Source: Catenuloplanes atrovinosus | GTDB taxonomy: Bacteria; Actinomycetota; Actinomycetes; Mycobacteriales; Micromonosporaceae | Assembly (NCBI RefSeq): GCF_031458235.1 | Contig: NZ_JAVDYB010000001.1 | Location: 4,361,001 to 4,425,000 of the forward strand | Length of the DNA stretch: 64,000 nucleotides | Direction of reading: 5' to 3' | Part shown: piece by piece, positions 2,523 through 16,279 of the stretch | Numbering within the stretch: the first letter of the stretch is position 1 | Layout of the letters: each line of letters begins with the position of its first letter | Made by a program: the position numbers and the translations under genes | The notes under the pieces: generated by a model | Database searches by the model: none | Told to the model about the DNA's origin: nothing | The model's input: the letters and a program-made list of their open reading frames with translations, nothing else

Positions 2523-2637
2523 GAGACTATCCCGATTCTGCCGCCGGGCCGCCCACGCTTGCGGGCCCCGACGATTACCCGCTCAAAAGCGAACGAAACG
2601 GGCTAATTCCGTGCGGGAGGAGCCCCGTGGGGCCGAC

Positions 2638-3759
2638 TCAGATCCGGCCGTGGTCCAGGAGCAAGCCGACGGCGGTGAGGGCGGCCGCCGCGGCGAACTG
2701 CTGCATCGTGGCCAGCGTCCCGGCCGCCCGCGACACGGCGCCGGGAGCCGATCCGGCCAGGGCCGCCGCGGTCAGCGCGGGCAGCGTCAGCCCCATCGCC
2801 GCACCGCACAGGACGAGCGGTATCCGCGGGTCCGCGCTCGCGTACAGCAGCGCCAACCCGGCGCCGGCCAAGGCCGGCCCGGCGACCCAGGAACGGCTCG
2901 GCAGCCGCGGCCCCATCAGCGAGACGAGAGCGAAGCTGACACCGTAGAAGAACAGACCCGGCGGGTCCGGACGCAACGACACCACCAGGATCAGCACCGC
3001 CTGACCGGCGTAGACCCCACCGGTCCCGGCCGCCGCGAGCAACGGCCGCCACCCCGCGAAAACCAATCGGCGACGGCGACCGGCCATCACCCGCAGCCGC
3101 CGGTGATAGCCCCACCCCAGCGGTACCACCGCGATCGCGGCCGCCAGCACCCACGCGGTGCCACCGGCCAGACGCAGCCACGCGAGCGGCCCCAGGACCG
3201 ACAGCGGCAACAGCACGCCCAGCACCACGCCGGCCGCGTCGACCCGGTTCCCGGCCACCGGACCACCGTCGGGCAGGCGGCACACGATCAGCAGGCCGAC
3301 AGCGATCTCCACCAGGAACAGCCAGCGCCAGCCGACCGGCAGACCGCCGAGCAGTTGCCCGCAGGCGGCGGCCGCCCCCAGCGTGGCCGCCATCAGCGGG
3401 TACGCCCGAGACCCGCCCCGCCAGATCAGCACGAATCCCTGCGCCACCATCGCCGCGGCACTCACGCCCTGCACCAGGCGTCCGCCGAGCAGCACGGCCG
3501 CGGTCGGCGCGCTCGCGCAGACCACGCACGCCGCGAGGTACCCGCACGCCCCGGCGGCGATCAGGCGGCGGGCGCCGAACCGGTCGCCGAGCACCCCGCC
3601 GGCCAGCAGACCGGCGGCGTACCCGAACGAGAACGACGCCGGCACCAGCTCGGCGCCCCGGCTACCGCCGGTCAGGTCGTGCTGCACCACCGGCGCCGCG
3701 ACGCCGAGCGCGAAGAAGTCGAACACCGGCAGGAACAGCACGACCAACGCCAGGAACAC
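2638..3759 (-). CDS. MFS drug/metabolite efflux transporter
   Basis: The 373-residue protein is almost wholly hydrophobic, with about eleven or twelve membrane helices. The MFS motif A region after helix 2 is visible as GGVLGDRFGARRL. An Asp sits in helix 1 (PVFDFFALGVAAPVVQHDL), a layout seen in proton-coupled DHA2/DHA1-like exporters. The GTG start at 3759 lies 5 bases after the stop of the esterase-RidA gene, so it should be co-translated as the third gene of an operon with that gene and the metallo-hydrolase. It is slightly short for an MFS protein (usually 400 residues or more). By context it probably exports the substrate or product of the two upstream hydrolases; the substrate itself is not readable. 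Confidence 0.85.
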   Translation of the reverse strand: MFLALVVLFLPVFDFFALGVAAPVVQHDLTGGSRGAELVPASFSFGYAAGLLAGGVLGDRFGARRLIAAGACGYLAACVVCASAPTAAVLLGGRLVQGVSAAAMVAQGFVLIWRGGSRAYPLMAATLGAAAACGQLLGGLPVGWRWLFLVEIAVGLLIVCRLPDGGPVAGNRVDAAGVVLGVLLPLSVLGPLAWLRLAGGTAWVLAAAIAVVPLGWGYHRRLRVMAGRRRRLVFAGWRPLLAAAGTGGVYAGQAVLILVVSLRPDPPGLFFYGVSFALVSLMGPRLPSRSWVAGPALAGAGLALLYASADPRIPLVLCGAAMGLTLPALTAAALAGSAPGAVSRAAGTLATMQQFAAAAALTAVGLLLDHGRI

Positions 3760-3764
3760 CGCGG

Positions 3765-5600
3765 TCAGCCCAGCACGGCCAGGGCGTCGACCTCCACCAG
3801 CATGCCGGGCGGCAGCGGCATGTACATCGTGGTCCGCGCCGGATACGGCTCGCCGACGATCGCGGCGTACGCCGTGTTCATCTCCGGCAGGTGGCCCGGA
3901 TCGGTGAGGTAGACACGCAGCATGACCACGTCGGCGAGGCTCGCCCCGCCCGCGTCGAGCACCGCGATCACGTTCCGCAGGGCACGGTCGGTCTGCTCGG
4001 CCACGCTCCGGCCGCTGATCGCACCGGTGGTGGGGTCGAGCGGAAGCTGCCCGGACACCTGCAGGACCGGGCCCTTGCGGACGCCCTGCGCCAGCGGCGC
4101 CGGCAGCACCGGAGCACCGGTGGTGGTGACCACGGCCCGCGAGTCCGGGTCCCGGGACCAGGCCCGCCGTTGCGGCCCGCGCGGGTCGTCCAGCCGCTCC
4201 CAGACCTCGCCGATGCGCATGGTGGTGCGGCGGACGGTGTCGTACGGCGGCCAGCCGGGGTCGCCGGTGCGGGCGAAGCGGATCCAGGCGTGATGCACGC
4301 GTGCGGCGAGGTCGGCGGGCGGGTCACCCGCGCCGAGCAGCCGGTTCTCCCCGCGTACGGCGGCATGGTCGAGGTTGTCGAAGACGAACGGCAGCTCCAC
4401 CGCGTGCGCGGCGCCGAGCGCGGGCGAGCGCCAGGTGAACTCGTACGCGAAGGTCGCGCGGTCCGCCCGCCGGGCATGAGCGTCGAGCAGGGCCCAGGTC
4501 CCGGCGCCGAACAGCGCGTCACCGAGGACCGCGGCGCGCAACCGCGGGGCGGTCACGGCCGGGTCCTGGCTTCGGTACGCGGCCAGCAGGCGCGCCGGAT
4601 CGGGATGGGCGGCCGACGCCACCGCGTCCACGTCGGCCGCGGTCGACGTGGCATATCTGCCGACCGGAATCAGGTAGAGGTTGCCCTCCTCCGCGTTGAC
4701 GCCGGCGAGCAGGTCCACGTCGGCGGCGAGCGCGTCGGCCGGCTGGGCGTCCAGCACCAGGCTGAACGGGCTGAGCCCGACCAGCGGGTCGAACGCCGTC
4801 CGGGTACGCAGATCGAGCCCGGCCAGCCGTCCCGCGGCCTCGACCAGGAGCTCGTCACCGACCTCGGCGAACGCGTCCGCGTGCGCGGGCACACCGAGGA
4901 TCTCGGCGGCGGCCGCGGTGACGCGGGCGCCCTGTTCGCGGGTGAACGCGCCGAGACCGCTGCCGCTCTGGACGATCGCGCGCCGCATCAGCCCGGCGGC
5001 CTCCGGCGTGGCCAGGACGCCGCCGACGATGGTGGCGCCGGCGGACTGGCCGAACAGCGTGACGTTGTCCGGGTCGCCGCCGAACGCCGCGATGTCGCTC
5101 CGGACCCAGCGCAGCGCGGCGATCACGTCGAGCAGGCCCCGGTTGGCGGGCGCGCCGGGCAGGTCGAGGAAGCCCGCGATGCCCAGCCGGTAGTTCACGG
5201 TGACCAGGACGACGCCGTCGCGGGCGAACGAGGAGCCGTCGTAGAGGGCGGCCCGGTTCGACCCGGCGACGAAGCCGCCGCCGTGCACGAACACCATGAC
5301 CGGCAGGCCGGTGGCTGCCGGGTCGGGCGTACGGACGGTGACGGTGAGGTAGTCCTCGCCCCGGTGCCAGCCGTCGAAGTAGGCGCTCATGTCGATGTCG
5401 CCGAGCCTGCGTTCGGCCTGCGGCGCGGTCGGGCCCGGCACCGTGGCGTCGCGGACACCGTCCCAGGGTGCGTGCGGTTCGGGGGCGGCGAACCGGCCGG
5501 CGCCGACCGGCGCCGCGGCGTAGGGGATGTCCAGGAACGCGACGTGCCCGTCCAGGCGCAGGCCGCGCACGATGCCGTTGGTCGTGCTCACCTCGGTCAC
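3765..5600 (-). CDS. Type-B carboxylesterase fused to a C-terminal RidA (YjgF/UK114) domain
   Basis: The 611-residue protein has two enzymes in one chain. Residues about 1-480 are a type-B carboxylesterase: oxyanion-hole motif HGGGF near residue 107, nucleophile serine in GQSAGA near 185, and the triad histidine region AAHAVELPFVF. Residues about 485-611 are a complete RidA domain that keeps the arginine in YPARTT which binds the imine/enamine carboxylate in RidA enzymes. The usual roles are ester hydrolysis and hydrolysis of reactive enamines or imines to ketones. The GTG start at 5600 overlaps the stop of the upstream metallo-hydrolase gene by four bases (GTGA), so translation is coupled. 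Longer open starts to 6092 run antiphase through the metallo-hydrolase gene and are rejected. I infer a stepwise detoxification or catabolic enzyme acting on an amino-acid-like ester; the substrate is unknown. Confidence 0.9.
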   Translation of the reverse strand: MTEVSTTNGIVRGLRLDGHVAFLDIPYAAAPVGAGRFAAPEPHAPWDGVRDATVPGPTAPQAERRLGDIDMSAYFDGWHRGEDYLTVTVRTPDPAATGLPVMVFVHGGGFVAGSNRAALYDGSSFARDGVVLVTVNYRLGIAGFLDLPGAPANRGLLDVIAALRWVRSDIAAFGGDPDNVTLFGQSAGATIVGGVLATPEAAGLMRRAIVQSGSGLGAFTREQGARVTAAAAEILGVPAHADAFAEVGDELLVEAAGRLAGLDLRTRTAFDPLVGLSPFSLVLDAQPADALAADVDLLAGVNAEEGNLYLIPVGRYATSTAADVDAVASAAHPDPARLLAAYRSQDPAVTAPRLRAAVLGDALFGAGTWALLDAHARRADRATFAYEFTWRSPALGAAHAVELPFVFDNLDHAAVRGENRLLGAGDPPADLAARVHHAWIRFARTGDPGWPPYDTVRRTTMRIGEVWERLDDPRGPQRRAWSRDPDSRAVVTTTGAPVLPAPLAQGVRKGPVLQVSGQLPLDPTTGAISGRSVAEQTDRALRNVIAVLDAGGASLADVVMLRVYLTDPGHLPEMNTAYAAIVGEPYPARTTMYMPLPPGMLVEVDALAVLG

Positions 5601-6493
5601 CGGAAGGCCGCCCATTCCTTGATCGCGAACCGGTCCGCGTCCCGGGTGACCTCCAGGGCGCCGTTGCCGGGGAAGTGCGCCGGCAGGACCAGGGCGTCGT
5701 TGTCGGCGGCCCAGCCCAGCAGCCGGCGGCGGGTGGCCCGGGCCTCCCGCGGGTCCTCGCAGAAGCAGCTGTTGACGTCCGGTTCGAGGATCTGGACCGG
5801 GCTGTGCATCAGGTCGCCGACGAACAGCGCCCGGTCGGTTCCGGAGGTCAGCGTCAGGACGCAGGAGCCCGGCGTGTGCCCCGGTGCCGGCTCCAGCAGC
5901 AGGTTGCCGTCGATGCGGTGGCTGCCCTCCCACAGCAGGGTCTGACCGGCCCGGTGCACGGGGGCGACGCTGTCCTCGAAGACGTTCTGGTTGCCCCGGC
6001 CGAGCACGGTCGGACGGTTGTTCGCCGGGTTCCAGAAGTCGAAGTCGGCCTTCGGCATCACGTACGTCGCGTTCGGGAAGGTCGGGACCCATTCCCGGTC
6101 ACGCAGGCGGGTGTTCCAGCCGACGTGGTCGATGTGCAGGTGGGTGTTGACGACCAGGTCGACGTCCTCGGGGGCGACGCCGGCCCGGGCGAGGTTGTCG
6201 AGGAAGTCGGTCTCGCGGCGGCTCCAGACCTGTGCGTACGGGCGCTCCTTGTGGTTTCCGACGCCGGTGTCGACCAGGATCGTGCGGCCCTCGCTGCGTA
6301 CCAGCCAGGTCTGGAGCGCCGAGTTGACGCCGTCCGTGGCCGCGTCGTGGAAGTGGGGCTGAAGCCAGCTCGCGTTGTCCCGCCAGACCTGGCGGGAGGT
6401 GTCCGGGAAGAAGACGTCGGGCGTCATCTCCACCGGCCCGAAGTACTCCCACACCCGGGTGACGGAGACGTCACCCAGCTCGATCGTTTCCAA
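5597..6493 (-). CDS. Metallo-beta-lactamase fold hydrolase (lactonase-like)
   Basis: The 298-residue protein carries the binuclear zinc motif HLHIDH (about residues 118-123), a later metal histidine in PAPGHTPGS, an aspartate in LFVGDLMHSP and a histidine in LPAHFPGN, the full ligand set of the glyoxalase II/lactonase branch. The arrangement resembles quorum-quenching lactonases and methyl-parathion-hydrolase-like enzymes more than true beta-lactamases. No signal peptide is present, so it is cytosolic. It is the first gene of a three-gene coupled operon (this enzyme, esterase-RidA, MFS) and faces an XRE regulator across 134 bases. Lactone or ester hydrolysis fits the neighbours; the exact substrate is not determined. 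Confidence 0.9.
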   Translation of the reverse strand: METIELGDVSVTRVWEYFGPVEMTPDVFFPDTSRQVWRDNASWLQPHFHDAATDGVNSALQTWLVRSEGRTILVDTGVGNHKERPYAQVWSRRETDFLDNLARAGVAPEDVDLVVNTHLHIDHVGWNTRLRDREWVPTFPNATYVMPKADFDFWNPANNRPTVLGRGNQNVFEDSVAPVHRAGQTLLWEGSHRIDGNLLLEPAPGHTPGSCVLTLTSGTDRALFVGDLMHSPVQILEPDVNSCFCEDPREARATRRRLLGWAADNDALVLPAHFPGNGALEVTRDADRFAIKEWAAFR

Positions 6494-6627
6494 TGGATCT
6501 CCCTGCGAATGGTGTCGAGGCGACGAGGGAGATCGTCCGCGGGACGGGGTACGGGCAGCCAGTCCCGGCTTTGTCTACCCCTGACAGGTACATGCTGCGG
6601 ACGTCCCGGGCACGCATACTCGAAGGT
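6494..6627. promoter_or_regulatory. Divergent promoter region between the hydrolase operon and the XRE regulator gene
   Basis: These 134 bases separate the start codons of the metallo-hydrolase (minus) and the XRE regulator (plus). A short inverted pair TGTC...GACA is visible near 6573-6587. The layout suggests that the XRE protein controls the hydrolase operon from here. No convincing -35/-10 pair was assigned. Confidence 0.4.
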
Positions 6628-7482
6628 ATGGACGTCAGATCGTCACTCGGCGAGTTCCTCCAGGCCAAGCGGGCACGGCTGCGCCCCGGCGACGTCGGGC
6701 TGCCCCGCTACGGCGACCGCCGCCGGGTGCCCGGCCTGCGCCGTGAGGAGCTCGCCATGCTCGCCGGGGTCAGTGCCGGCTACTACGCCCGGCTGGAGCA
6801 GGGCCTGTCGCTGCACGCCTCCCGCGAGGTCCTCGACGCCATCGCGGGCGCCATGCGGCTGACCGCCGCCGAACGCGAACACCTGCACGTCCTGTCGTCC
6901 CTGGCCGGTCACCGGGTCAACCCGGCGCCACCACCCACCGAACACGCCGCCGCCGGCCTGAACGCCCTGCTGGCCGCCATGCCCGGCGTACCCGCGCTGG
7001 TCACGGGCCGCCGCAACGACGTCCTCGCCTGGAACCGCGCCGGTCACGCCCTGTTCGCCGGTCACCTGCCCGTCACCGCCCCCGACCACCCGGACACCCG
7101 CCCCAACCTGTCCCGGATGGTCTTCCTGGACGCGCACACCCGCGGCCTCTACCGCGACTGGGAGCGCAAGGCCCGCGCCGTCGTCGGCAACCTGCGCGCC
7201 ATGACGGCCCGCAACCCCGGCGACACCGGCCTGGCCGCCCTGGTCGGCGAACTGGCGATCGAGAGCCCCGACTTCGCCCGCCTGTGGGCGGAACACACCG
7301 TCACACCCTGCGGCTCGGACGTGTACGAACTGGCCCACCCCCTGGTCGGCGACCTGACCGTCACCCAGAACACGCTGACCGTCACCCAGGAACCCCACCA
7401 GTCCCTGATCACGATCACCGCCGAGGCCGGCTCATCCTCCGCCGCCGCCCTCACGATGCTCCGCCAGGCCTGCGGCGGGTAA
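6628..7482 (+). CDS. XRE-family regulator with MmyB-like ligand domain
   Basis: The 284-residue protein has an N-terminal Cro/C1-type helix-turn-helix with the signature LRREELAMLAGVSAGYYARLEQG (about residues 33-55, split here by family comparison) and a C-terminal MmyB-like domain containing LAWNRAGHALF and the late HPLVGDL motif typical of this family. The MmyB-like domain is thought to bind a small hydrophobic ligand. The ATG at 6628 is chosen because the HTH begins about ten residues later in the usual position (SSLGEFLQAKRARL); earlier in-frame codons from 6493 run through the divergent promoter. It is divergent from the hydrolase operon and is its likely regulator. A second member of the same family lies at 58284. 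Confidence 0.9.
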   Translation: MDVRSSLGEFLQAKRARLRPGDVGLPRYGDRRRVPGLRREELAMLAGVSAGYYARLEQGLSLHASREVLDAIAGAMRLTAAEREHLHVLSSLAGHRVNPAPPPTEHAAAGLNALLAAMPGVPALVTGRRNDVLAWNRAGHALFAGHLPVTAPDHPDTRPNLSRMVFLDAHTRGLYRDWERKARAVVGNLRAMTARNPGDTGLAALVGELAIESPDFARLWAEHTVTPCGSDVYELAHPLVGDLTVTQNTLTVTQEPHQSLITITAEAGSSSAAALTMLRQACGG

Positions 7483-7574
7483 CCTCCCACCGCGTCGGCA
7501 TCCACGCGGCCTCCCTATTCGCGGTCCGCGCCGAGCGCGTGCGGCATCCGCGAGAGCACCGCCCGTGGCCAGGG

Positions 7575-9467
7575 TCACGGCGAGCGGGTCACCGGGAACG
7601 GTCCGCTGGAACGCGTCGACCGCGGGGCCGCGATCTCCCCGGCCGCTCCGGCGATGTCCTGGGCGAGGGCGAACGACCGCACGACGGGATGCAGGTGGTA
7701 GTGCCCGGCGGCGGCCGACTGGAGCAACGCCAGGTCGACCAGTTCCTCCAGCAGGTCTTCGCTGTCCGGCTCCGGCCGGTCCAGCATGCGCGCCGCGAGG
7801 GGCAGCGCCACGTCCGGCAGGTCGGTGGCGGCCAGCAGGACCAGTGCCCGCTGCTGCTCCGGGGTGAGCTGCCGCCAGCCGGCCAGGAAGGTCGCGCTCA
7901 CGTCGAGGTCACCGGCTCGCAGCGTGCCCAGCCCGCGCCCGCCGGTGAGCCGGTCGCGGAGCGTGCCGATCGACCAGCTCGGCCGGGCGGCCAGCCGTGC
8001 CGCCACGATGCGGACCGCCAGCGGCAGCAGTCCGCAGGCGACCACGAGTTCCCGTGCGGTGCCGCGCTCGGCGGAGACCCGGTCGTGGCCGATCACCCGG
8101 CCCAGCAGCTCGATCGCCTCGGTCTCGTCGAACGCCCCGAGGTCGACGTGCACGGCGCCGGTCAGGCCGGCCAGCCGGGATCGGGAGGTGACCAGGACGC
8201 CGCAGGTGGCGGCGCCCGGGAGCAGCGGGGTGATCTGTGCCAGGCGGTGCGCGTCGTCCAGCACCACGAGCAGCCGGCGGTCGTGCGTCACCGAGCGGAA
8301 CAGCGCCGACCTGCTGTCCATGCAGTCCGGGGCGGACTCGACCCCGAGCGCGTCGAGGAAGCTGTCCAGGATGTCCTGCGGCGATGCGGGCGTGGCGTCG
8401 CTGCCCCGCAGGTCCGCGTACAACTGACCGTCCGGGTACTGCGCGCCGAGCCGGTGGGCGACGTGCCGTACCAGCGTGCTCTTGCCGAGACCGCCCATCC
8501 CGGCCACGGCCACGACCGGCAACGAGCCGCGGTCGGGCCGGCTCAGCGCGTCGGCGACGAGGCGGGCCACCGCCTCGCGGCCGGTGAAGTCCGCCGTGGT
8601 GGCCGGGACCTGGGCCGGGCGCGGCGCCGGCTCCTCGTTTCGCGGCTGCTCCTCGCTCCGGGCCGGCGGGGCGGCGGGCCCGTCACTGGCCAGGATCCGG
8701 CGGTGAGCGTCGGCGAGTTCGGCGCTCGGTTCCAGCCCCAGCCGGTCCACGATCCGGCGGCGGGCGGCCGGGAACACCGCGGCGGCCTCCCCCGGCCGGC
8801 CGCTGGCGTGCAGCGCCCGGATCAACAGCACGGAGAGGCTCTCCCGCAGCGGGTTCTCGTCGCTGAGCGTCCGCAGTTCGGGTACGCACCAGGAGGCGCG
8901 GCCGAGGTCGATGTCCAACGCCAGACGCGCCTCGAGCAGGTCCAGGTGGAACTCGCTCAGCCTGCGACGGTGCCGTTCCGCGAACGGGCCGGGCACCCCG
9001 GCCAGCGGCTCGCCGTTGAAGAGGGCGAGCGCCTCGGCCAGCATCGCGCGGGCGCTCCTCGCGTCGCCCGCCCGGCGGGCGCGGCGGGCCAGCGCCTCGG
9101 CGCGCCGCACGTCGACGGCGTCCTCGGGCGCCTCCAGGCGGTAGCCGTCACCGACGGTCGTCAGCAGCCGGGGCTCGGTGGCGTCGCCCTCCAGCACCTT
9201 GCGCCAGCGCCAGGCGTACGTGCGGAGGATCTTCGTCGCGGTGACCGGCGGTTCGTCGCCCCACAGCGCTTCCATCAGCACGGCCGCGCTGGCCCCCTGG
9301 CCGGGCCGCAGCAGGAGGACGGTGAGCAGGGCCTGTTGCTGCGGACTCCCCATGTCGAGTTCGACGGAGCCCCGGCGGCCGCGCACGCCGCCCAGCAGAG
9401 TGAACCGAAGGGGGTCCACATCGACCGCGGACGACGCATCGGCGGCGTTTCGGGAATCGACCCTCAT
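7575..9467 (-). CDS. SARP-type transcriptional activator with NB-ARC ATPase domain (AfsR/DnrI-like)
   Basis: The 630-residue protein begins with an OmpR-like winged helix (about residues 15-110), followed by the bacterial transcriptional activation domain (about 118-265, LSEFHLDLLEARLALDIDLG and a TPR-like run) and an NB-ARC P-loop domain with Walker A GMGGLGKST near residue 322 and Walker B LLVVLDDAH. Such proteins switch on secondary-metabolite clusters in actinomycetes by binding direct repeats that overlap the -35 region. It lacks the long TPR C-terminus of full AfsR. It is transcribed away from a 44-aa peptide gene and a YcaO gene, 222 bases apart, and is the obvious pathway-specific regulator of that locus. 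Confidence 0.92.
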   Translation of the reverse strand: MRVDSRNAADASSAVDVDPLRFTLLGGVRGRRGSVELDMGSPQQQALLTVLLLRPGQGASAAVLMEALWGDEPPVTATKILRTYAWRWRKVLEGDATEPRLLTTVGDGYRLEAPEDAVDVRRAEALARRARRAGDARSARAMLAEALALFNGEPLAGVPGPFAERHRRRLSEFHLDLLEARLALDIDLGRASWCVPELRTLSDENPLRESLSVLLIRALHASGRPGEAAAVFPAARRRIVDRLGLEPSAELADAHRRILASDGPAAPPARSEEQPRNEEPAPRPAQVPATTADFTGREAVARLVADALSRPDRGSLPVVAVAGMGGLGKSTLVRHVAHRLGAQYPDGQLYADLRGSDATPASPQDILDSFLDALGVESAPDCMDSRSALFRSVTHDRRLLVVLDDAHRLAQITPLLPGAATCGVLVTSRSRLAGLTGAVHVDLGAFDETEAIELLGRVIGHDRVSAERGTARELVVACGLLPLAVRIVAARLAARPSWSIGTLRDRLTGGRGLGTLRAGDLDVSATFLAGWRQLTPEQQRALVLLAATDLPDVALPLAARMLDRPEPDSEDLLEELVDLALLQSAAAGHYHLHPVVRSFALAQDIAGAAGEIAAPRSTRSSGPFPVTRSP

Positions 9468-9564
9468 CTCGCCATTCTGGCAAACCGGAGTGGCCGGCGG
9501 CCGCTGTCTTCAGTGAGCCCGTGCGCTGGTCAGCCGTCCGCTGAGCAGCACATCGGGGGTGCGA

Positions 9565-9592
9565 ACAACGGTGCCGGGAATCGACAACGGTG
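9565..9592 (+). repeat. Nine-base direct repeat ACAACGGTG, candidate SARP binding site
   Basis: ACAACGGTG occurs exactly at 9565-9573 and 9584-9592, starts 19 bases apart, in the intergenic region between the SARP gene and the peptide gene. The second copy overlaps a possible -35 element. SARP proteins bind direct repeats in this position, although a spacing of 11 or 22 is more usual. The function is inferred. Confidence 0.4.
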
Positions 9593-9610
9593 TCTGACTG
9601 CGGATATATC
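9581..9610 (+). promoter_or_regulatory. Candidate promoter of the peptide-YcaO operon
   Basis: TCGACA at 9581-9586 and TATATC at 9605-9610 are separated by 18 bases and lie about 80 bases upstream of the peptide start codon. This local AT patch is unusual in the surrounding GC-rich sequence. The assignment rests on resemblance to sigma-70-type hexamers only. Confidence 0.3.
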
Positions 9611-9689
9611 CACCATTCATTCGGCATGGATCGGCGTGCACGAGGCTCGGTCCAATGCTCCGCTCGACGCTCGATGATGGAGGTAGCAC

Positions 9690-9824
9690 ATGGGACTGCA
9701 CGACGCGATCTACCGGGCACAGAAGGACAAGCCCGAACTCGCCGAGACCGAGCAGCGAATCCTCGACGAGCTGACCGAGCGTGACCGGGATTCCGAGGTG
9801 GAGACGGCCGAGCCCGCCGCCTGA
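9690..9824 (+). CDS. Small acidic peptide (44 aa), candidate YcaO substrate/RiPP precursor
   Basis: An ATG at 9690 follows a strong ribosome binding site (GGAGG at 9679-9683, seven bases from the ATG) and opens a 44-residue frame ending at TGA 9822-9824. The peptide has 13 Asp/Glu, 6 Arg/Lys and no cysteine. It looks helical over most of its length and ends in a Ser/Thr/Glu/Ala/Pro-rich tail (residues 35-44, SEVETAEPAA). It lies 82 bases upstream of the YcaO gene on the same strand, with a strong hairpin between them, and is divergent from a SARP regulator. This is the arrangement expected of a RiPP precursor and its modifying enzyme. I recognise no family. It could instead be a small regulatory or partner protein. 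Confidence 0.7.
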   Translation: MGLHDAIYRAQKDKPELAETEQRILDELTERDRDSEVETAEPAA

Positions 9825-9836
9825 GTCGACGTCACG

Positions 9837-9863
9837 GGGCCGGGCGGATCACCCGCCCGGCCC
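9837..9863 (+). terminator. Strong GC hairpin between the peptide and YcaO genes (attenuator or partial terminator)
   Basis: An 11-bp perfect stem (9837-9847 with 9853-9863, GGGCCGGGCGG and its complement) closes a five-base loop ATCAC, 12 bases after the peptide stop codon. No T-run follows. Hairpins in this position commonly let the precursor mRNA accumulate above the enzyme mRNA, or protect the upstream message. Confidence 0.6.
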
Positions 9864-9906
9864 ACCCGGTCCCGGAGTGTCGGTGCGTGCGGTCGGAGGT
9901 GGCGTG

Positions 9907-11226
9907 ATGTCGGGGACGAATCTTGCGGTCGGCGCCGTGGTTCAGGACGGTGAGCGGGCACTGAGCCTGCCCGAGGCCCATTCACGGGGTATGGCGGCGG
10001 TGGCCGAACTGGGTCTCCGGGTGGACTGCACGGCGGTGCTCGACGGTGACCCCGCCGTGTGGACGGCGACGTTGTGGCGTGACGACGATCCGGTGCCCAG
10101 CGGGCTTGGGCTCGGCAAGGGAGATTCGGCGGCGGCGCGGGTCGGCGCGATCTTCGAGGCGCTGGAGCACCACCTCAGTGGGCTGCGGGGCCTCGCGGGC
10201 GGCGGGACGACGCTGCGCCCCGCGAGTGAGATCGCCGGCGACGCGACGCTGCGGCGCGACGTGGCGCTCGGCCTGCTCGGGGAACTGCCCGACGGGCCGG
10301 TGGGCTGCCTTCCGTTCCGCGTGGTGACCAGCGGCGCCGAGGTCGGCGTGCCGCTGTTCCTGTCCGTGCCGGACTACCTCGACGAGGGCGCCGACCCGCT
10401 GCGGGAGAGCCTGGGCGACCACTACGACTACGCCGGCGTGAGCCGGTACTCCTGCAACAACGGCTGGGCGGCGGGCACCGACCCGGTCGAGGCGGCGGTC
10501 CACGCGCTCAACGAGACCATCGAGCGGGACGCGCTCTCCCTGCTGCTGATCGACCAGTTCCTGGGGCGGCGCAGGTCCCCGCTCGTCCTCATCGACCCGG
10601 GTACGCTGCCGGACGACCTCGCGGCCCTGATGTCGGCGGCGCAGACCATCCTCGGCCGGCGGCCGCACCTGATCGACATGACCACCGACCTGGGCGTGCC
10701 GGCGATCCTCGCCTACCTTCCCGCGCCGGACGGCGAACCGGCCCGGGTCCGCGGCTGCGGCGCCTCGCTCTCCCGTCACTATGCGATCGCGCGGGCGGTG
10801 AGCGAGCTGGTCCAGGTGCACCTGGCGTCCTCGCTCGGCGACGTCCACTCCGCGTTCGCCGCCATGACGCCGGTCCGGCACGACTGGACGGCGCCGTATC
10901 CGGCGCTGCACGCCTGCTACCTGAGCGACTTCAGCACCCGGCTGGGCGGCGCCACCCTGGTGCCGTACCGGGACACGGACGCGCCGGGCACGGCCGCCGG
11001 CCACTTCGGCGCGCTCGTCGACGCCCTGTCCCGGCGCGGCCTCACACCGTTGCGGCGTGACCACTACGTCACCGGCAACCTGGCCGTGGTCAACGTCTTC
11101 GTCCCCGGCCTGGAGCGGTTCATGCTCGTCACCGACGGGCAGGTGGTGGTGCCGGGCGAGCGAGGCATGGCGGTCAAGAACAACGGCGTACGACGCGAGC
11201 CCGGCACCGAAGGTGACCGACGCTGA
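9907..11226 (+). CDS. YcaO-domain protein (ATP-dependent peptide cyclodehydratase/thioamidation-type enzyme)
   Basis: The 439-residue protein is a full YcaO domain. YcaO enzymes use ATP to activate a peptide backbone amide, giving azol(in)es, thioamides, amidines or macroamidines. The ATP/Mg signatures are visible: AIFEALEHH (about residues 80-88), the central block NNGWAAGTDPVEAAVHAL followed by NETIERDAL (about 180-208), and a later ARAVSELVQ. The C-terminus lacks the PxPxP ending of classical heterocyclases. The ATG at 9907 has GGAGG seven bases upstream. No TfuA-like, E1-like, dehydrogenase, peptidase or transporter gene is adjacent, so it may act alone or with an unlinked partner. The 44-aa peptide encoded just upstream is the natural substrate candidate. 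Confidence 0.9.
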   Translation: MSGTNLAVGAVVQDGERALSLPEAHSRGMAAVAELGLRVDCTAVLDGDPAVWTATLWRDDDPVPSGLGLGKGDSAAARVGAIFEALEHHLSGLRGLAGGGTTLRPASEIAGDATLRRDVALGLLGELPDGPVGCLPFRVVTSGAEVGVPLFLSVPDYLDEGADPLRESLGDHYDYAGVSRYSCNNGWAAGTDPVEAAVHALNETIERDALSLLLIDQFLGRRRSPLVLIDPGTLPDDLAALMSAAQTILGRRPHLIDMTTDLGVPAILAYLPAPDGEPARVRGCGASLSRHYAIARAVSELVQVHLASSLGDVHSAFAAMTPVRHDWTAPYPALHACYLSDFSTRLGGATLVPYRDTDAPGTAAGHFGALVDALSRRGLTPLRRDHYVTGNLAVVNVFVPGLERFMLVTDGQVVVPGERGMAVKNNGVRREPGTEGDRR

Positions 11227-11296
11227 TCATCGCGCCAGCCGGCCGTCACCGAGCACTCGACGAACCATGCCCCCTGCGCGAGTGCGAACGCCGTCT

Positions 11297-11315
11297 CCGC
11301 CCGGCCGTGGGGCGG
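11297..11315. terminator. Possible bidirectional terminator between convergent genes
   Basis: CCGCCC at 11297-11302 pairs with GGGCGG at 11310-11315 around a seven-base loop. It lies between the end of the YcaO gene and the end of the convergent secreted-protein gene, with no T-run. Confidence 0.35.
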
Positions 11316-11316
11316 A

Positions 11317-11781
11317 TCAGGTGGTGTGGGTCAGGGTCGCGCCGGTCCGGAAGTCCTCCAGCTCGGCGGTCATGGAGATGTGCTCGACCACGCACGTGTA
11401 GCCGCTGACGCCCAGGCCCTGCACCCTGAGCGGCACCGTGGCCGGCCCCTCGACGGTGCCGTCGAAGCTGATCAGGTAGTCGCTCGTCCGCAGGGACGAC
11501 GCGGTCCGGTGAATGTGCAGCGTCGACTCCTCATTCGTGCACACCGCGTCCACCTCGGCGGTGACCCTGGTCGAGATCGTGGTGACGTTCGCGTCCAGCT
11601 CCACGTCCACCTCCAGGAAGGCGACGGTGGCGGTGGTGCCGTTCCACCTGATCTTGGTCGCCTCGGGCACGAAGTGCGCGTCCGCGGTCGCCGATGCGGC
11701 ACTGAAGTCGCCCAACAGCAGCGCCGCGGTGGCCACCACGGACGCCCCCACCCGGGCCGGCGCTTTCTTCATGAATAGCAT
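11317..11781 (-). CDS. Small secreted protein of unknown family
   Basis: From the ATG at 11781 (purine-rich AAAGGGGG just upstream) the protein is 154 residues: a basic start (MLFMKKAPARVG), a hydrophobic stretch ending in an alanine-rich cleavage region (SAASATADA, about residue 35), then a mature part rich in Val/Thr/Glu suggesting beta strands, with two cysteines that could form a disulphide. ATG 11772 (MKKAP) is an alternative start. I recognise no family. It is convergent with the YcaO gene and lies in the same orientation, 121 bases downstream of another secreted protein of unknown family, so the two may form a transcription unit. Confidence 0.7.
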   Translation of the reverse strand: MLFMKKAPARVGASVVATAALLLGDFSAASATADAHFVPEATKIRWNGTTATVAFLEVDVELDANVTTISTRVTAEVDAVCTNEESTLHIHRTASSLRTSDYLISFDGTVEGPATVPLRVQGLGVSGYTCVVEHISMTAELEDFRTGATLTHTT

Positions 11782-11902
11782 CTTGCCCCCTTTCGAAGAG
11801 AACGAAGAACGGCGACTGGTGTGGGTCAACCGCACCGCACCAATCGCCGCCCTCGTCAAACAATGATCGGCAGATCAGTCGAATGATCTGTCCGAGGTCC
11901 GA

Positions 11903-12526
11903 TCAGAACTCCTCGAAGTCCACCGGAATGTCGTTGTTGTTCTGGTCCTTGGCACCGCCGGATTCACCGTTGACGACCGTGAAGTCCTTGGTCGTTCCGG
12001 CGACCTGGAGTCGCAGCGTCTCGAACCCGACGCGAAGGGTCGAGACGCCGTTCAAATTGGCCGCTGAAACCTTGAACTTGATGTCGATGACGACGTCGAC
12101 GGTGTTCGACTCCTCGAACGTCTTCTTCAGGACACTCCGGCTGGCGTCCGCCTTGAACCTGGCTCCCCACACGCTGAACCCGGCCGAGTACGGCAGGTTG
12201 TAGACGTCGTAGAGGGCCCGGTAGTCGTGGGTCCTGATCGTGCCCCTGATGGTTCCCTCGAGGTCGAAGCCCTGCGACTGGATCACGATGTTCTTGAAGC
12301 TGCTGAAGCCGTGGAACGCGGTCACGTTCTCGGTGGCCACACGGCTGCCGGCCCGGTTGTCGGGCAGCAGGATGGTGAAGCCGTCGTTGGTGACATTGAT
12401 GATCGACACTTCCGCCGGGCTGGCGGCACTGGCCGGGCTGGGGGCGGTCAGTGCCCCACCCGTCAATGCCAGCACACTGGCGGAGACGACCACCGCGTTG
12501 CGGACTTTCCCTGCACGAGAGCGCAT
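11903..12526 (-). CDS. Secreted protein of unknown family (about 207 aa)
   Basis: The ATG at 12526 follows GAAGGGG and starts a protein with a clear Sec-type signal peptide (MRSRAGKVRNAVVVSASVLA, then hydrophobic to SPASA, about residue 34). The mature part is rich in Asn/Val/Thr/Lys, predicts beta structure and ends in an acidic tail (DIPVDFEEF). It contains no cysteine. Its amino-acid and base composition looks less GC-biased than its neighbours. No family is recognised. It lies upstream of the other small secreted protein and downstream of a long AT-richer intergenic region that presumably holds its promoter. Confidence 0.75.
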   Translation of the reverse strand: MRSRAGKVRNAVVVSASVLALTGGALTAPSPASAASPAEVSIINVTNDGFTILLPDNRAGSRVATENVTAFHGFSSFKNIVIQSQGFDLEGTIRGTIRTHDYRALYDVYNLPYSAGFSVWGARFKADASRSVLKKTFEESNTVDVVIDIKFKVSAANLNGVSTLRVGFETLRLQVAGTTKDFTVVNGESGGAKDQNNNDIPVDFEEF

Positions 12527-13336
12527 TTTGACCCCTTCAGGTCGAGTGGACGGCAATCATGCGGCGTAGATGATTGGGGTTCACCCGGCGACTGCCGTCA
12601 ATTGCTTTGAACGTAACGGCGGAAACGACCCGTGTCTATGCCCCTACTCGGGGTAGGTCCACAGTGGCCGTGCATTTCCCGGCGTACCGCATTCTCATTA
12701 AAGATGACCTAGGTCGCCTAGGACCGGGCTACCACTCGCCGATCCGCCGCGATCGTCCGATTGGACCCGAAATATTGCCCGGAGATAACGAGATTTGCCC
12801 TCTCGGTCGGGCCTCATCAGCCTTCGGCACGAAATCGGCGAATAAGGCGTGCGGGCGGCCCGGCCCAGTGACTCAAACATGCATTCTTGTCGATATTCAG
12901 ACAACCAAATGCGGGCACGGTGGATTCCGGAGCCCGGGCTTTTGTGCCTTCAGGGCGCGAGAACGGGCCGGCGGCCACCGCCCCGGCGGACCGTAGGCGC
13001 CGGTCAGCGCGAGGGTCGAGCGGCGGCGATGCCGATGGGGAGCAGATCGATCCCGATGACTCTCGAAGCTCCCGCACGTGCGGGACGGGACCGTGACGCG
13101 ATCGGCGCCGCGGTTCCTTCTCTGCGCGCGATGGTCGCGTACGGGACTGCCTTCTGCCTCCGGTGCGTCGCCTCGGCCTTTCGGTGGGGCGGCACCTGCT
13201 TACCTACCGACCTGACCGCGGGGTCCGGCCGTGGCGGTGTGCGAGGCGGAGCGGCGCCCGGACCTGGTCCGTCAGGAGCTGTCGTACCCGAGCGCTAGCC
13301 TCTCCGCGAATCTCGCCCCGAACTTTAGGAGAACGC
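12527..13336. other. 810-base gap without a convincing gene; AT-richer promoter zone
   Basis: This divergent gap separates the secreted protein (minus) and the beta-propeller gene (plus). The first third (about 12600-12900) is distinctly less GC-rich than the window and contains CCTAGG twice within 12706-12723. Short open frames exist on both strands (for example 12574-12996 and 12849-13298) but show no ribosome binding site or recognisable protein. Near its right end a GGAG sits just ahead of the GTG of the next gene. Confidence 0.5.
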
Positions 13337-14488
13337 GTGAAATCCTCCATCAGGGCGGTGGTCGCGCTGGCGGCAACCGTGGTCGTGGCCGTGGGGCTGA
13401 CGCCCGGCAGCGCGCTCGCGGCGGGCCAGGGCTGGTGGCCGGTTCCCGGCTTCACACCGGGTAACAGCGGCTACAACCCGGCCGAGACGACGATCACCGC
13501 CGCGACCGTCAGCGGCCTCGATCGGGATTACTCGCTGCTCCAGGACCGCTTCGTCACCGCGCCGGTGGTGGGCGGGAACCGGATCTACGTCGCCGGGTGG
13601 AGCGGGCTCCACGCGTACGAGGAGGGCACCGGTCAGCTGCTGTGGTCCACGGTCTGGGACACACGCCCGGTCGCCCGGGAGACCACCTCCCAACTGGCCA
13701 TCGCCGGCGACCGGCTGATCTCTTTACGGAACCATGCGGACGGCGGCAGCAGCCTGCTCCAGGTCTTCGACCTCGACGGCCAGCCGGTGGCCCGGACCGA
13801 GCGCATGCCCGGCACCTACACCGGGATGGCCGTGCTCGGCGACACTATTGTGATCTCTGCGCCGGATCTGTCCGTCACTACCGCGTACCGGATCGAGTGC
13901 GTCGTGGCCTGCGAGCTGACGCCGGTCTGGTCCACGGACGCCACCATGGCCCGCTCGGTCAGCGCGAACGGGCGGGTGCTGCTCGCCGGCACCCGGGACG
14001 GCCGATACCGCAGCGAGATCCGCGACATCGCCACCGGCACGGTCACCTGGAGTCTCGCCGGACGTGCCTACCAGGCGCTGGCCGCGAACGACGCGGGGAC
14101 GAGGTTCTACGTCTCCTGGTGGGACACCTTCCAGGTCCTGGACGTGGAGACCGGCACGGTGACCCTGCTGGGGTCGAACGTGTTCCCGCAGGAGGTGGCG
14201 ATCACCCCGACGCGGATCTACACCGTGTACGCCGGCCGGATCACCGCGTTCGACGCCACCGACGGCACCCAGCTGTGGCGCCGCACGTTCCAGGACGACT
14301 TCCAGAAACCGGCCGTCGCCGGCGGCGTGCTCTACCTGGCGACCGCGTTCGGCCGGACGCACGTTCTGGACGCGGAGACCGGGGACGACCTCATGTCGCC
14401 GCTGGCGTGGATCCTCGATCGGCCGGTCGTCACCGACGGCAAGGCCTACCTGACCGACACCAAGGGTTTGCACGTCTACGTGGTCTGA
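13337..14488 (+). CDS. Secreted PQQ-type beta-propeller protein
   Basis: The GTG at 13337 is preceded by AGGAGAACGC and encodes 383 residues: a signal peptide (VKSSIRAVVALAATVVVAVG to ALAA, about residue 30) and a series of about seven PQQ-like/Trp-docking repeats, seen as blades such as GNRIYVAGWSGLHAYEEGTG, TRIYTVYAGRITAFDATDGT and GVLYLATAFGRTHVLDAETG. The family forms beta-propellers that usually bind proteins or sugars rather than PQQ. A rare TTA leucine codon lies at 13724-13726, so translation may depend on the bldA tRNA, a developmental control in streptomycete relatives. It is monocistronic and converges on the GH16 gene across a strong hairpin. Its ligand is unknown. Confidence 0.85.
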   Translation: MKSSIRAVVALAATVVVAVGLTPGSALAAGQGWWPVPGFTPGNSGYNPAETTITAATVSGLDRDYSLLQDRFVTAPVVGGNRIYVAGWSGLHAYEEGTGQLLWSTVWDTRPVARETTSQLAIAGDRLISLRNHADGGSSLLQVFDLDGQPVARTERMPGTYTGMAVLGDTIVISAPDLSVTTAYRIECVVACELTPVWSTDATMARSVSANGRVLLAGTRDGRYRSEIRDIATGTVTWSLAGRAYQALAANDAGTRFYVSWWDTFQVLDVETGTVTLLGSNVFPQEVAITPTRIYTVYAGRITAFDATDGTQLWRRTFQDDFQKPAVAGGVLYLATAFGRTHVLDAETGDDLMSPLAWILDRPVVTDGKAYLTDTKGLHVYVV

Positions 14489-14502
14489 CAGCCGGTCACC
14501 AC

Positions 14503-14531
14503 GGAGTGGCGGTGGAGCTCACCGCCACTCC
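14503..14531. terminator. Terminator hairpin between convergent genes
   Basis: A 12-bp perfect stem (14503-14514 with 14520-14531, GGAGTGGCGGTG and its complement) with a five-base loop GAGCT begins 15 bases after the beta-propeller stop codon. It lies between two convergent genes and could serve both. Confidence 0.65.
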
Positions 14532-14660
14532 CCCGGATCGCCGACCGCCAACTCCTCGGTCACCTTTCGATCCGCGCGGGCACCGACGCCGGCGGGCGAC
14601 CCCGTCGGCGTGGACCGGCCGGTGCGTCCCGGCTGGGTTGCCGGCGGCGTCGTGGGCGCA

Positions 14661-16115
14661 TCAGAACGGCGTGCCGCCCTCGTGGATCGCGATGTCGCCG
14701 ACCGTCATGGTCCTCGGCAGCGTGGTCATGGCCGGGCTGGTGCCGGTCGCTACCGCCACGTTGAGGATGAGGAACTGGTCGCCGCCGAACGGCCAGGTGC
14801 GGCCGGCGGAGATCGCGTCCGCGGCCCAGACCGTCATGGTGGGCTTGCGGTCGATGTAGAAGCGGACCACGTTGCGGTCGAAGTACACGCCGTACCGGTG
14901 CGGGCGGGCGTCCAGCGACTCGCCGAGGTTCGTGGTGCCGCCGGCCTCGCCCCAGCCGTAGGGCATGTCGACCTTGGGCGCGCCGGCCTTGGCCAGGTGC
15001 ATGGCGCTGTGCGCGAGCGTGGGCGTGGCACCCCAGCCCTCGAAGATGTCCAGCTCACCGCCGGCCGGCCAGCCCACGGTGCGGCTGTTCACGCCGACGG
15101 TCCAGAACGCGGGCCACACCCCGGCGCCGACCGGGGCGACGATCTCCGCCTCGACGTACGAGCCGGCCCGGACCGTCACCTTGCCCTCCGTGGTCAGGCG
15201 GGCGCTGGTGAAGTCGCGGACGACGCCGTCCGTACCGCGTACCCGCTGATGCCGGGCGGTGATCGCGAGCTTCCCGGTGCCGGTCAGCGCCGCGTTGTCC
15301 GTGCTCCGCGTGTAGGTCTGCACCTCGTTGTTGCCCCAGCCGTGCCCGCCGGTCTCGAAGTTCCAGTCCGCGGCGGACGGCGACGTGCCGGCCCCGCCGG
15401 CGAAGGAGACCACCCGCTCCGGGACGGTATCGGTCCGCGCGGGCAGCGCCGCGGAGAAGTCCTTGACGCTCACCCCGGTCACCTCGAACGCGAACCCACC
15501 GTTCGCCGGCAGGCCCAGGTAGACCGAGGTGTCCGCCCAGCCGGGCGCGGTCGCCACGAAGGTACGGGTGATCAGGTGCCAGGCCGCGTCGGTGTACTTG
15601 CCGTAGACCGCGGCGTCGGCGGGCCGGTGACCGTAGTTGCCGTTGGCCAGCAGCATGCCGATCGAGGCGCCGGACGCACGGGTGTCCCGCACCCACGCCT
15701 CCATCCGGTAGACCTTGCCGACCGCGAAGAACGTCTGCGGGCTGCGCAGCGGCACCAGGGCGAACGCCCAACCGCCCGTGCCCGGGCCGGCCGCGGTGCG
15801 CGACAGCGCCATCGCGGTCTTGGCGGTGAACGGGCCGGAGACGCCGGTGACGCGGCGCACCGCGATCGGGCCCGCGCTGGAGGCGGCGGTCCAGCCGGGG
15901 TTCGTGGTGGCGCCGGAGCCGTCCAGCACACCCTCGGTGCTGCCCGCGACAGGGACACCGGAGGTGACGGTGAGCGCGCGGCTGCTGTACCGCTGGACCT
16001 GCGGATCCGCCGCCGCGATCGATGCCGCGGACGCGGGAAAGGCGAGTGTGACGGCGGCGAGCGCGACGACGGATATCGTGCGTCGCGCCCCGCGCCAGGA
16101 CTGGTGGGTGCGCAT
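14661..16115 (-). CDS. Secreted glycoside hydrolase family 16 enzyme
   Basis: The 484-residue protein has a long Sec signal peptide (MRTHQSWRGARRTISVVALA, cleavage after an alanine-rich region near residue 37), an N-terminal beta-sandwich resembling a CBM4/9-type carbohydrate-binding module (about 40-215, with VYRMEAWVRD and a following VSVKDF end), and a C-terminal GH16 catalytic domain carrying the ExDxxE active site as GELDIFEGWG. GH16 enzymes cleave beta-1,3/1,4-glucans and related polymers by retention. The start ATG 16115 is preceded by GAGG. The protein is monocistronic and likely used for extracellular glucan degradation. Confidence 0.92.
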   Translation of the reverse strand: MRTHQSWRGARRTISVVALAAVTLAFPASAASIAAADPQVQRYSSRALTVTSGVPVAGSTEGVLDGSGATTNPGWTAASSAGPIAVRRVTGVSGPFTAKTAMALSRTAAGPGTGGWAFALVPLRSPQTFFAVGKVYRMEAWVRDTRASGASIGMLLANGNYGHRPADAAVYGKYTDAAWHLITRTFVATAPGWADTSVYLGLPANGGFAFEVTGVSVKDFSAALPARTDTVPERVVSFAGGAGTSPSAADWNFETGGHGWGNNEVQTYTRSTDNAALTGTGKLAITARHQRVRGTDGVVRDFTSARLTTEGKVTVRAGSYVEAEIVAPVGAGVWPAFWTVGVNSRTVGWPAGGELDIFEGWGATPTLAHSAMHLAKAGAPKVDMPYGWGEAGGTTNLGESLDARPHRYGVYFDRNVVRFYIDRKPTMTVWAADAISAGRTWPFGGDQFLILNVAVATGTSPAMTTLPRTMTVGDIAIHEGGTPF

Positions 16116-16279
16116 GGGTGAATGACCTCGCGATACAGGGGTCGGTCCGAGGGGATCTCGTTCGTGGGGTGACCAGAGCGCCCTATCGGGAGAACCGGGC
16201 ACCCGTTGAGCACCGCACCGAACCGCAACCCGGAAGCACCACGCCTACCGCGGGTACGGACGTGCCCCATCGAATCGGA

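Follow-up and report, generated by a model that had tools for sequence, protein, structure and literature searches.

The peptide-YcaO locus and its conservation

A 64,000-nucleotide stretch of the Catenuloplanes atrovinosus genome (NZ_JAVDYB010000001.1, positions 4,361,001 to 4,425,000 of the forward strand; hereafter the window) contains a compact locus, in which a gene for a small peptide is followed by a hairpin and a gene for a stand-alone YcaO enzyme, with a Streptomyces antibiotic regulatory protein (SARP) encoded divergently (Table 1). The original prediction had described this locus as a candidate new system for a ribosomally synthesized and post-translationally modified peptide (RiPP). 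Its layout and coordinates were borne out, including the divergent SARP, the acidic 44-residue peptide with no cysteine, the hairpin, and a YcaO that lacks a C-terminal PxPxP motif. The genome, 8.9 Mb in one contig, contained no other Pfam YcaO match.

Table 1. Positions of the features of the locus within the window.
Feature	Positions	Strand	Details
SARP regulator with NB-ARC domain, divergent	7575-9467	-	Pfam: BTAD 4.5e-31, Trans_reg_C 2.5e-09, NB-ARC 1.9e-13
CTGCGGATATATC block in the SARP-peptide intergenic region	9598-9610	.	Identical in three congeners (alignment A4)
Precursor-like peptide gene, 44 aa (stop included)	9690-9824	+	Ribosome-binding site, codon-position GC, congener conservation, profile family
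Proposed N-terminal core after Met removal, codons 2-16 (GLHDAIYRAQKDKPE)	9693-9737	+	Invariant G2; clade-variable; diverged in L210 tandem copies; putative function
Proposed follower helix, codons 17-32 (LAETEQRILDELTERD)	9738-9785	+	L17 90% and E21 invariant in alignment A6; predicted helix 19-38, modest confidence; putative role
Unconstrained tail, codons 38-44	9801-9821	+	All amino-acid changes among three congener sequences fall here
Perfect 11-bp hairpin, GGGCCGGGCGG-5 nt-CCGCCCGGCCC	9837-9863	+	Kept in L151 and L152
Stand-alone YcaO, 439 aa	9907-11226	+	Pfam YcaO 4.1e-37

The peptide gene is preceded by a ribosome-binding site (GGAGG at 9679-9683), and its guanine-cytosine (GC) contents at the three codon positions (0.77/0.39/0.86) follow the pattern expected for a high-GC gene. 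The peptide was 91-95% identical to its counterparts in the two congeners whose locus is intact; residues 1-37 were unchanged among the three sequences, and synonymous and replacement codon differences numbered 4/4, 6/2, and 5/4 in the three congener pairs. At the genus level, the locus was intact in three of five genomes, fragmentary in G002, and without a match in G004. The identity among congeners, together with profile matches beside YcaO genes in other families, indicates that the peptide gene is more than a chance reading frame. A Pfam match of the peptide to HTH_SUN2 (E 0.088) was below the cut-off and was set aside.

Related YcaOs were drawn from 61 kin genomes (a match at E 1e-3 in 23 of them, mostly to distant YcaOs), a class sample (9 of 394 genomes), one family (73 of 341), the genus of L003 (2 of 70), the family of L004 (21 of 297), and a contig scan (seven loci), the counts per genome sample including the centre genomes. 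There were 85 loci with flanks, of which 84 were oriented by their YcaO match and one, the remnant L008, was not orientable. A profile built initially from the window peptide and the first related sequences, and then iterated, detected a short open reading frame (ORF) immediately before ycaO in 43 of 84 oriented loci, and five further peptides (L079, L081, L082, L083, and L086) were recognized by eye. In a tree of 79 YcaO rows, two sister clades split off, of which the first (22 rows) is linked to a methyltransferase and the second (10 rows) to a major facilitator superfamily (MFS) protein. This tree omits L077 and L078, which duplicate the contigs of L005 and L006, the fragments L007 and L153, and L141, which is shorter than 280 aa. 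Outside the two sister clades, the peptide was found upstream of ycaO in 48 of 52 rows (or 46 of 50 once duplicates are removed); the exceptions were L092 and the fragmentary YcaO matches L007, L141, and L153, the latter three being counted only for lying outside both sister clades. The sister clades have their own peptide types, which were present in all 22 methyltransferase rows and in nine of the ten MFS rows. In the Saccharopolyspora family, to which L004 belongs, a short ORF was found at 15 of 22 loci with an M[G/A] filter, so that this count provides no independent support for Gly2. In L153 (G002), L007, and L008, YcaO was reduced to fragments, and the small peptide ORF of L008 appeared by eye to be still intact.

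The original prediction had named the peptide as the substrate of the enzyme and called for its homologues to be sought beside other YcaO genes. Such homologues were found, and since the peptide and YcaO form a conserved pair, the peptide is very probably the YcaO substrate.

Anatomy of the peptide and features of the enzyme

Alignments of 26 (A5) and 19 (A6) peptides revealed a common layout, consisting of a constant Met-Gly start, a stretch whose sequence depends on the clade, an acidic helix with the motif LTxAExxxLxEL, which holds an invariant Glu and a 90% conserved Leu, and a free tail. Gly2 was invariant in both alignments. It was not an artefact of start choice, as residue 2 was Gly in 38 of 41 peptides (Met in two and Pro in one) when starts were picked by the Shine-Dalgarno sequence alone; among 152 neighbouring genes, whose starts were called roughly, Gly followed the start in 11. 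With the same Shine-Dalgarno starts, residue 2 in the methyltransferase clade (n = 22) was Ala in 19 peptides, Gly in two, and Pro in one, and in the MFS clade (n = 9) it was Gly in six and Ala, Ser, and Ile in one each. In the tandem precursors of L210, residues 3-16 were identical at 4 of 14 positions and residues 17-27 at 10 of 11, as would be expected if the N-terminal core diversifies while the follower attached to it is conserved. The peptide therefore probably carries its core at the N-terminus and a follower at the C-terminus, an order resembling that of bottromycin. This core-first, follower-last layout in a minimal pair appears to be the new element here.

Residues 2-16 of the window peptide contained no Cys, Ser, or Thr, and the stretch from Gly2 to the helix was likewise free of these residues in the two congeners, L003, L004, L167, L211, L214, and L219. 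Structure prediction placed helices at residues 3-12 and 19-38, with modest confidence (mean predicted local distance difference test score [pLDDT] 70.3). A positional pattern of Asp/Glu and hydrophobic residues in the presumed core, observed in 18 of 28 compared with 11.2 in shuffles (p 0.0038), was noted post hoc and set aside.

The preferred start of the YcaO is the ATG at 9907, the GTG at 9781 of the ORF list being overlong. Among 39 YcaOs, E195, E203, E206, R296, E300, and Q303 were invariant, and E84 and E87 were nearly so; we take this set to be the YcaO ATP site. The model of the enzyme showed a plain single-domain YcaO (pLDDT 88.5), whose best solved structural match was the archaeal MJ1094 (PDB 6peu; Z 35.1, root-mean-square deviation 3.3 over 353 residues, E 3.8e-16); identity to MJ1094 (6peu, 6pe3) was 18-19%. 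A P.P.P motif close to the C-terminus was found in two of the 79 YcaO rows, namely L082, whose frame is broken, and L151, where it lies in a tail, in comparison with five of ten other YcaOs (L204, L205, L208, L209, and L018). Against NCBIfam, the window YcaO reached 68 bits with the SagD model TIGR03604 (cut-off 219) and 38 bits with the thioamidation model (cut-off 365). Among the ten comparison YcaOs, the SagD cut-off was passed by L204, L205, L208, L209, L018, and L174, whereas L199, L203, and L206 scored best with the thioamidation model and L207 with the YcaO-kinase domain; thioamidation-model scores of the latter four were 163-259 bits, below the cut-off.

A quick tree with Shimodaira-Hasegawa-like approximate likelihood ratio test (SH-aLRT) support and no bootstrap contained 47 family rows and 36 other actinobacterial YcaOs, and a single branch (SH-aLRT 100, length 0.69) set the family apart. 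By sequence comparison, the family is separate from the SagD-type and thioamidation-like YcaOs compared. The original prediction had asked whether the enzyme clusters with a family of known, unrelated substrate; it did not do so against the 36 YcaOs in the tree, a set that does not include the characterised bottromycin and streptamidine enzymes. At locus L240 (G997:C4:1139381-1141717), two head-to-tail YcaO matches were observed in one 881-codon open frame, which is possibly a double YcaO protein.

Regulator, neighbouring genes, and lineage-specific partners

The hairpin between the peptide gene and ycaO has no T-run, and its folding z-score in the window was -1.78. Both congeners whose locus is intact retain it. 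Across the relatives it was strong in some and absent in others, and since z was below -2 in only 13 of 43 cases, it is not a family trait; it is possibly an attenuator or a transcript stabilizer. Homologues of the SARP by blastp adjoined the peptide-YcaO pair in L151 and L152, as well as the fragmentary copy L153, and a dissimilar NB-ARC protein 4.5 kb from the L083 YcaO fell in the same blastp group. The SARP had been proposed as a part of the locus; it is divergent from the pair in the window, but among the loci compared it adjoined the pair only in its own genus, where it may control it. The CTGCGGATATATC block is a possible promoter or SARP-site element.

Nine ORFs adjoining the locus (1830-16202) were scanned against Pfam, and five showed matches, to a metallo-beta-lactamase-fold hydrolase, an MmyB-type regulator, a carboxylesterase/RidA frame, a pyrroloquinoline quinone (PQQ)-repeat protein, and a GH16 glycosidase; the remaining four gave no match. 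None of the nine ORFs matched an E1-like, TfuA, transporter, or dehydrogenase model, and none was a leader-binding partner; for E1-like or leader-binding partners, no genome-wide search was made. A search of the complete genome for TfuA was negative, and the same search was positive in one of 14 controls. The lack of partners emphasized in the original prediction therefore extends to the genome for TfuA, and for E1-like, dehydrogenase, protease, and transporter genes it covers the nine-ORF Pfam scan and the comparison of neighbours. Two secreted-looking proteins, encoded at 11317-11859 (-) and 11903-12556 (-) of the window, had no Pfam matches and no relatives in the loci compared. PADLOC returned no match for the YcaO, SARP, or peptide.

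Neighbourhoods were compared using gene calls from a crude codon-position method (at least 60 aa), which missed some genes, such as the YcaO of L163. In 33 loci around the clade of the window (the window itself excluded), YcaO was called in 31, and no other gene family occurred in more than three loci. This suggests that the heritable unit consists of two genes, to which local regulators and partners are added. In one subclade, a NACHT protein was located near 29 of 30 YcaO rows; its example at L118:3159-5300 (-) is an NTPase of ~715 aa (Pfam NACHT, 1.1e-10) downstream of the peptide and YcaO, with apparent membrane stretches by eye and a weak PADLOC match to mad8 (2.1e-4). Among 341 genomes, 28 of the 31 closest homologues of one such protein (E up to 5.5e-205) were found at peptide-YcaO loci, although weaker homologues were widespread (162 of 341 genomes), which limits the specificity of this link. 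A trypsin-like peptidase of ~670 aa (Pfam; L095:6623-8632, +), which matches RT-Protease_XI in PADLOC (1.2e-8), belongs to a blastp group present in 13 loci, mostly upstream and divergent at NACHT-type loci. In the methyltransferase sister clade (L109, L122, L134, and 19 further rows), a divergent methyltransferase mostly adjoins the pair, and the peptides include MACAGYEWTVPLENADDIAPAVEELDEETAE. The MFS sister clade (L142-L150) contained peptides of the MGNSNSNG type, with an MFS-type group at five of these loci. A linear plasmid of Streptomyces sp. NBC_01707 (L163:7734-10923) carries the peptide, YcaO, and a SagB dehydrogenase.

Possible product and significance

The locus may constitute a minimal two-gene RiPP unit leading to an N-terminal cyclic amidine on Gly1, a complete chain whose chances we consider about even. 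Gly and Ala at position 2 are both compatible with removal of the initiator Met, and methionine aminopeptidase would thus leave Gly1 with a free amine. As a follower, the acidic helix in the C-terminal part (LAETEQRILDEL...) would dock on the YcaO, an enzyme without an additional recognition domain. The YcaO would use ATP to activate a carbonyl of the peptide backbone a few residues from the N-terminus, and attack by the Gly1 amine would produce an N-terminal cyclic amidine with a loss of 18 Da, as in bottromycin. The follower would then be removed and the product exported through genes located elsewhere. Azolines cannot form in the first fifteen residues after Met because Cys, Ser, and Thr do not occur there, and this feature, together with the failure to find TfuA, favours the amidine. 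The original prediction had ranked thioamide, (methyl)oxazoline, and amidine products above thiazoles; the amidine indeed remains more plausible than a thiazole, while a (methyl)oxazoline is unlikely with no Ser or Thr in residues 2-16, and the thioamide is weakened by the lack of TfuA.

Two known systems invite comparison. Bottromycin corresponds to the N-terminus of its precursor BtmD and requires the YcaO BtmF and the amidohydrolase BtmI, with the follower probably needed, and its amidine is proposed to arise by attack of Gly1 on the Val4-Val5 amide (PMC5103208). The window pair resembles it in the proposed N-terminal product and follower, in a stand-alone YcaO without an E1-like partner (PMC5103208, PMC6511847), and in a core that starts with Gly after Met. 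In contrast, bottromycin involves two YcaOs (BtmE and BtmF), BtmI, radical S-adenosylmethionine methyltransferases, and a P450, whereas the window pair has one YcaO and no recurring partner. Neither the window peptide (at E up to 1) nor any of ten family peptides (at E up to 10) was matched by the bottromycin precursor model NF033414 of NCBIfam, in searches whose HMMER filters drop weak matches; as a finder of references it detected nothing in 394 genomes or 14 controls and is uninformative. Streptamidine likewise combines an actinobacterial stand-alone YcaO (AmiD) and the small precursor AmiA, which is poor in Cys, Ser, and Thr, with an N-terminal amidine (PMC8442711). It differs in requiring AmiB (predicted to be E1-like), the hydrolase AmiC, the dehydrogenase AmiE, and FecBCDE-like genes, and in having a leader that precedes the core and a proline-rich AmiD end, which the window YcaO lacks (PMC8442711). 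None of these partners was found by Pfam name among the nine neighbouring ORFs, a scan in which the Ami sequences did not serve as queries. Kinship with streptamidine was rejected, as no HLSATH, HLSAT, or LSATH string occurred in six frames of 13 loci.

Several observations argue against the amidine or the proposed pair. Residues 3-12 are helical in the peptide model, so the presumed core may be structured, and seven of the 22 loci in the family of L004 had no suitable short ORF. A BtmI-like amidohydrolase was not found beside the pair, whereas BtmF works with BtmI, and the window peptide and the ten family peptides had no match in NCBIfam, a collection that contains the bottromycin precursor model. 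The closest solved structure is that of an archaeal enzyme, and SagB or nitroreductase genes adjoin the pair in some relatives, where they suggest azole chemistry. MJ1094 is presumably a Gly thioamidation enzyme whose substrate Gly lies in a large enzyme. Its structure in complex with a peptide and the invariant Gly of the peptides would fit a YcaO that makes a backbone thioamide in the N-terminal region without TfuA, as in the Gly thioamidation of methyl-coenzyme M reductase. A thioamide without TfuA is possible but less likely, and this explanation is unlikely overall, given the missing TfuA, the low thioamidation score compared with those of L199, L203, L206, and L207, and the branch that separates the family from these four. 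TfuA-YcaO systems for thioamidated RiPPs also pair a YcaO with a small peptide in actinobacteria; they differ from the window in the presence of TfuA and in the tree position of the YcaO.

Formation of azolines by the same pair, with the window genus as an exception or a follower residue being used, would account for the SagB-type dehydrogenase or nitroreductase located after YcaO in L163 and L084 (with a homologue in L125), and for the nearly constant Ser of 'ESLD/ASLD' in the NACHT clade, which is absent in L115. It is nevertheless distinctly unlikely, since the window, its congeners, and the six other loci named above lack Cys, Ser, and Thr between Gly2 and the helix, and P.P.P ends are rare in the family compared with other YcaOs. 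SagD-type enzymes share the fold and the conserved Glu/Arg/Gln set with the window YcaO, but differ in their TIGR03604 scores, PxPxP end, and E1-like gene, none being seen near the window pair. The pair showed two general features of YcaO-modified RiPPs, a YcaO domain with the conserved residues and a conserved short precursor-like gene alongside, and lacked the PxPxP end and Cys, Ser, or Thr in the presumed core that characterize thiazole/oxazole-modified microcins (TOMM) and linear azol(in)e-containing peptides (LAP). The peptide could instead be a small regulatory or scaffold subunit of a YcaO that acts on another cell protein, which is consistent with the full conservation of residues 1-37 within the genus and with the absence of a recurring transporter, protease, or tailoring gene in the 33 loci. 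We regard this as improbable because the clade-specific N-termini with a retained helix and the diverged tandem copies resemble cores rather than an interface, and because precursors of 31-89 residues poor in Cys, Ser, and Thr are known for stand-alone YcaOs (PMC8442711). A conventional order, with residues 1-36 as leader and the tail as core, would agree with the tail being the variable part within the genus. It is highly improbable, as no modifiable residue is conserved in the tail, which in some members (L005 and L006) is very short; in addition, 13 of the 22 methyltransferase-clade peptides are 31 aa long with the acidic motif at the very end, which leaves no space for a C-terminal core. 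A C-terminal core was therefore rejected, the tails being short, unconserved, and sometimes absent.

According to the survey in PMC8442711, most stand-alone actinobacterial YcaOs lack an assigned function, and a series of peptide families, some named in its text, accompanies them. In the set of papers searched, no published record of the pair was found and none of five diagnostic peptide strings occurred; the families described here may be among the peptide families of that survey, including those of its supplementary peptide networks. Tentatively, and with slightly less confidence than in the amidine chain itself, the loci may represent an undescribed large superfamily of minimal RiPPs with followers. 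Precursors of ~31-60 residues would have their N-terminal Gly or Ala exposed, and a single YcaO, the only dedicated enzyme, would act there. Lineages would add a NACHT NTPase, methyltransferase, SagB, or MFS protein, and the modified peptide would possibly stay inside the cell instead of being exported as an antibiotic. A search rule follows from the layout: Met-Gly, ~13-19 variable residues, LTxAExxxLxEL, and a YcaO a few hundred bp downstream; this rule already spans Catenuloplanes, Streptomyces, Saccharopolyspora, Actinomadura, and Nonomuraea. The branch with the NACHT protein hints that a modified peptide is tied to a sensor of the signal transduction ATPases with numerous domains (STAND) type. 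If the proposed amidine pathway is correct, the pair would count as one of the smallest RiPP systems and would bear on whether a lone YcaO makes N-terminal amidines.

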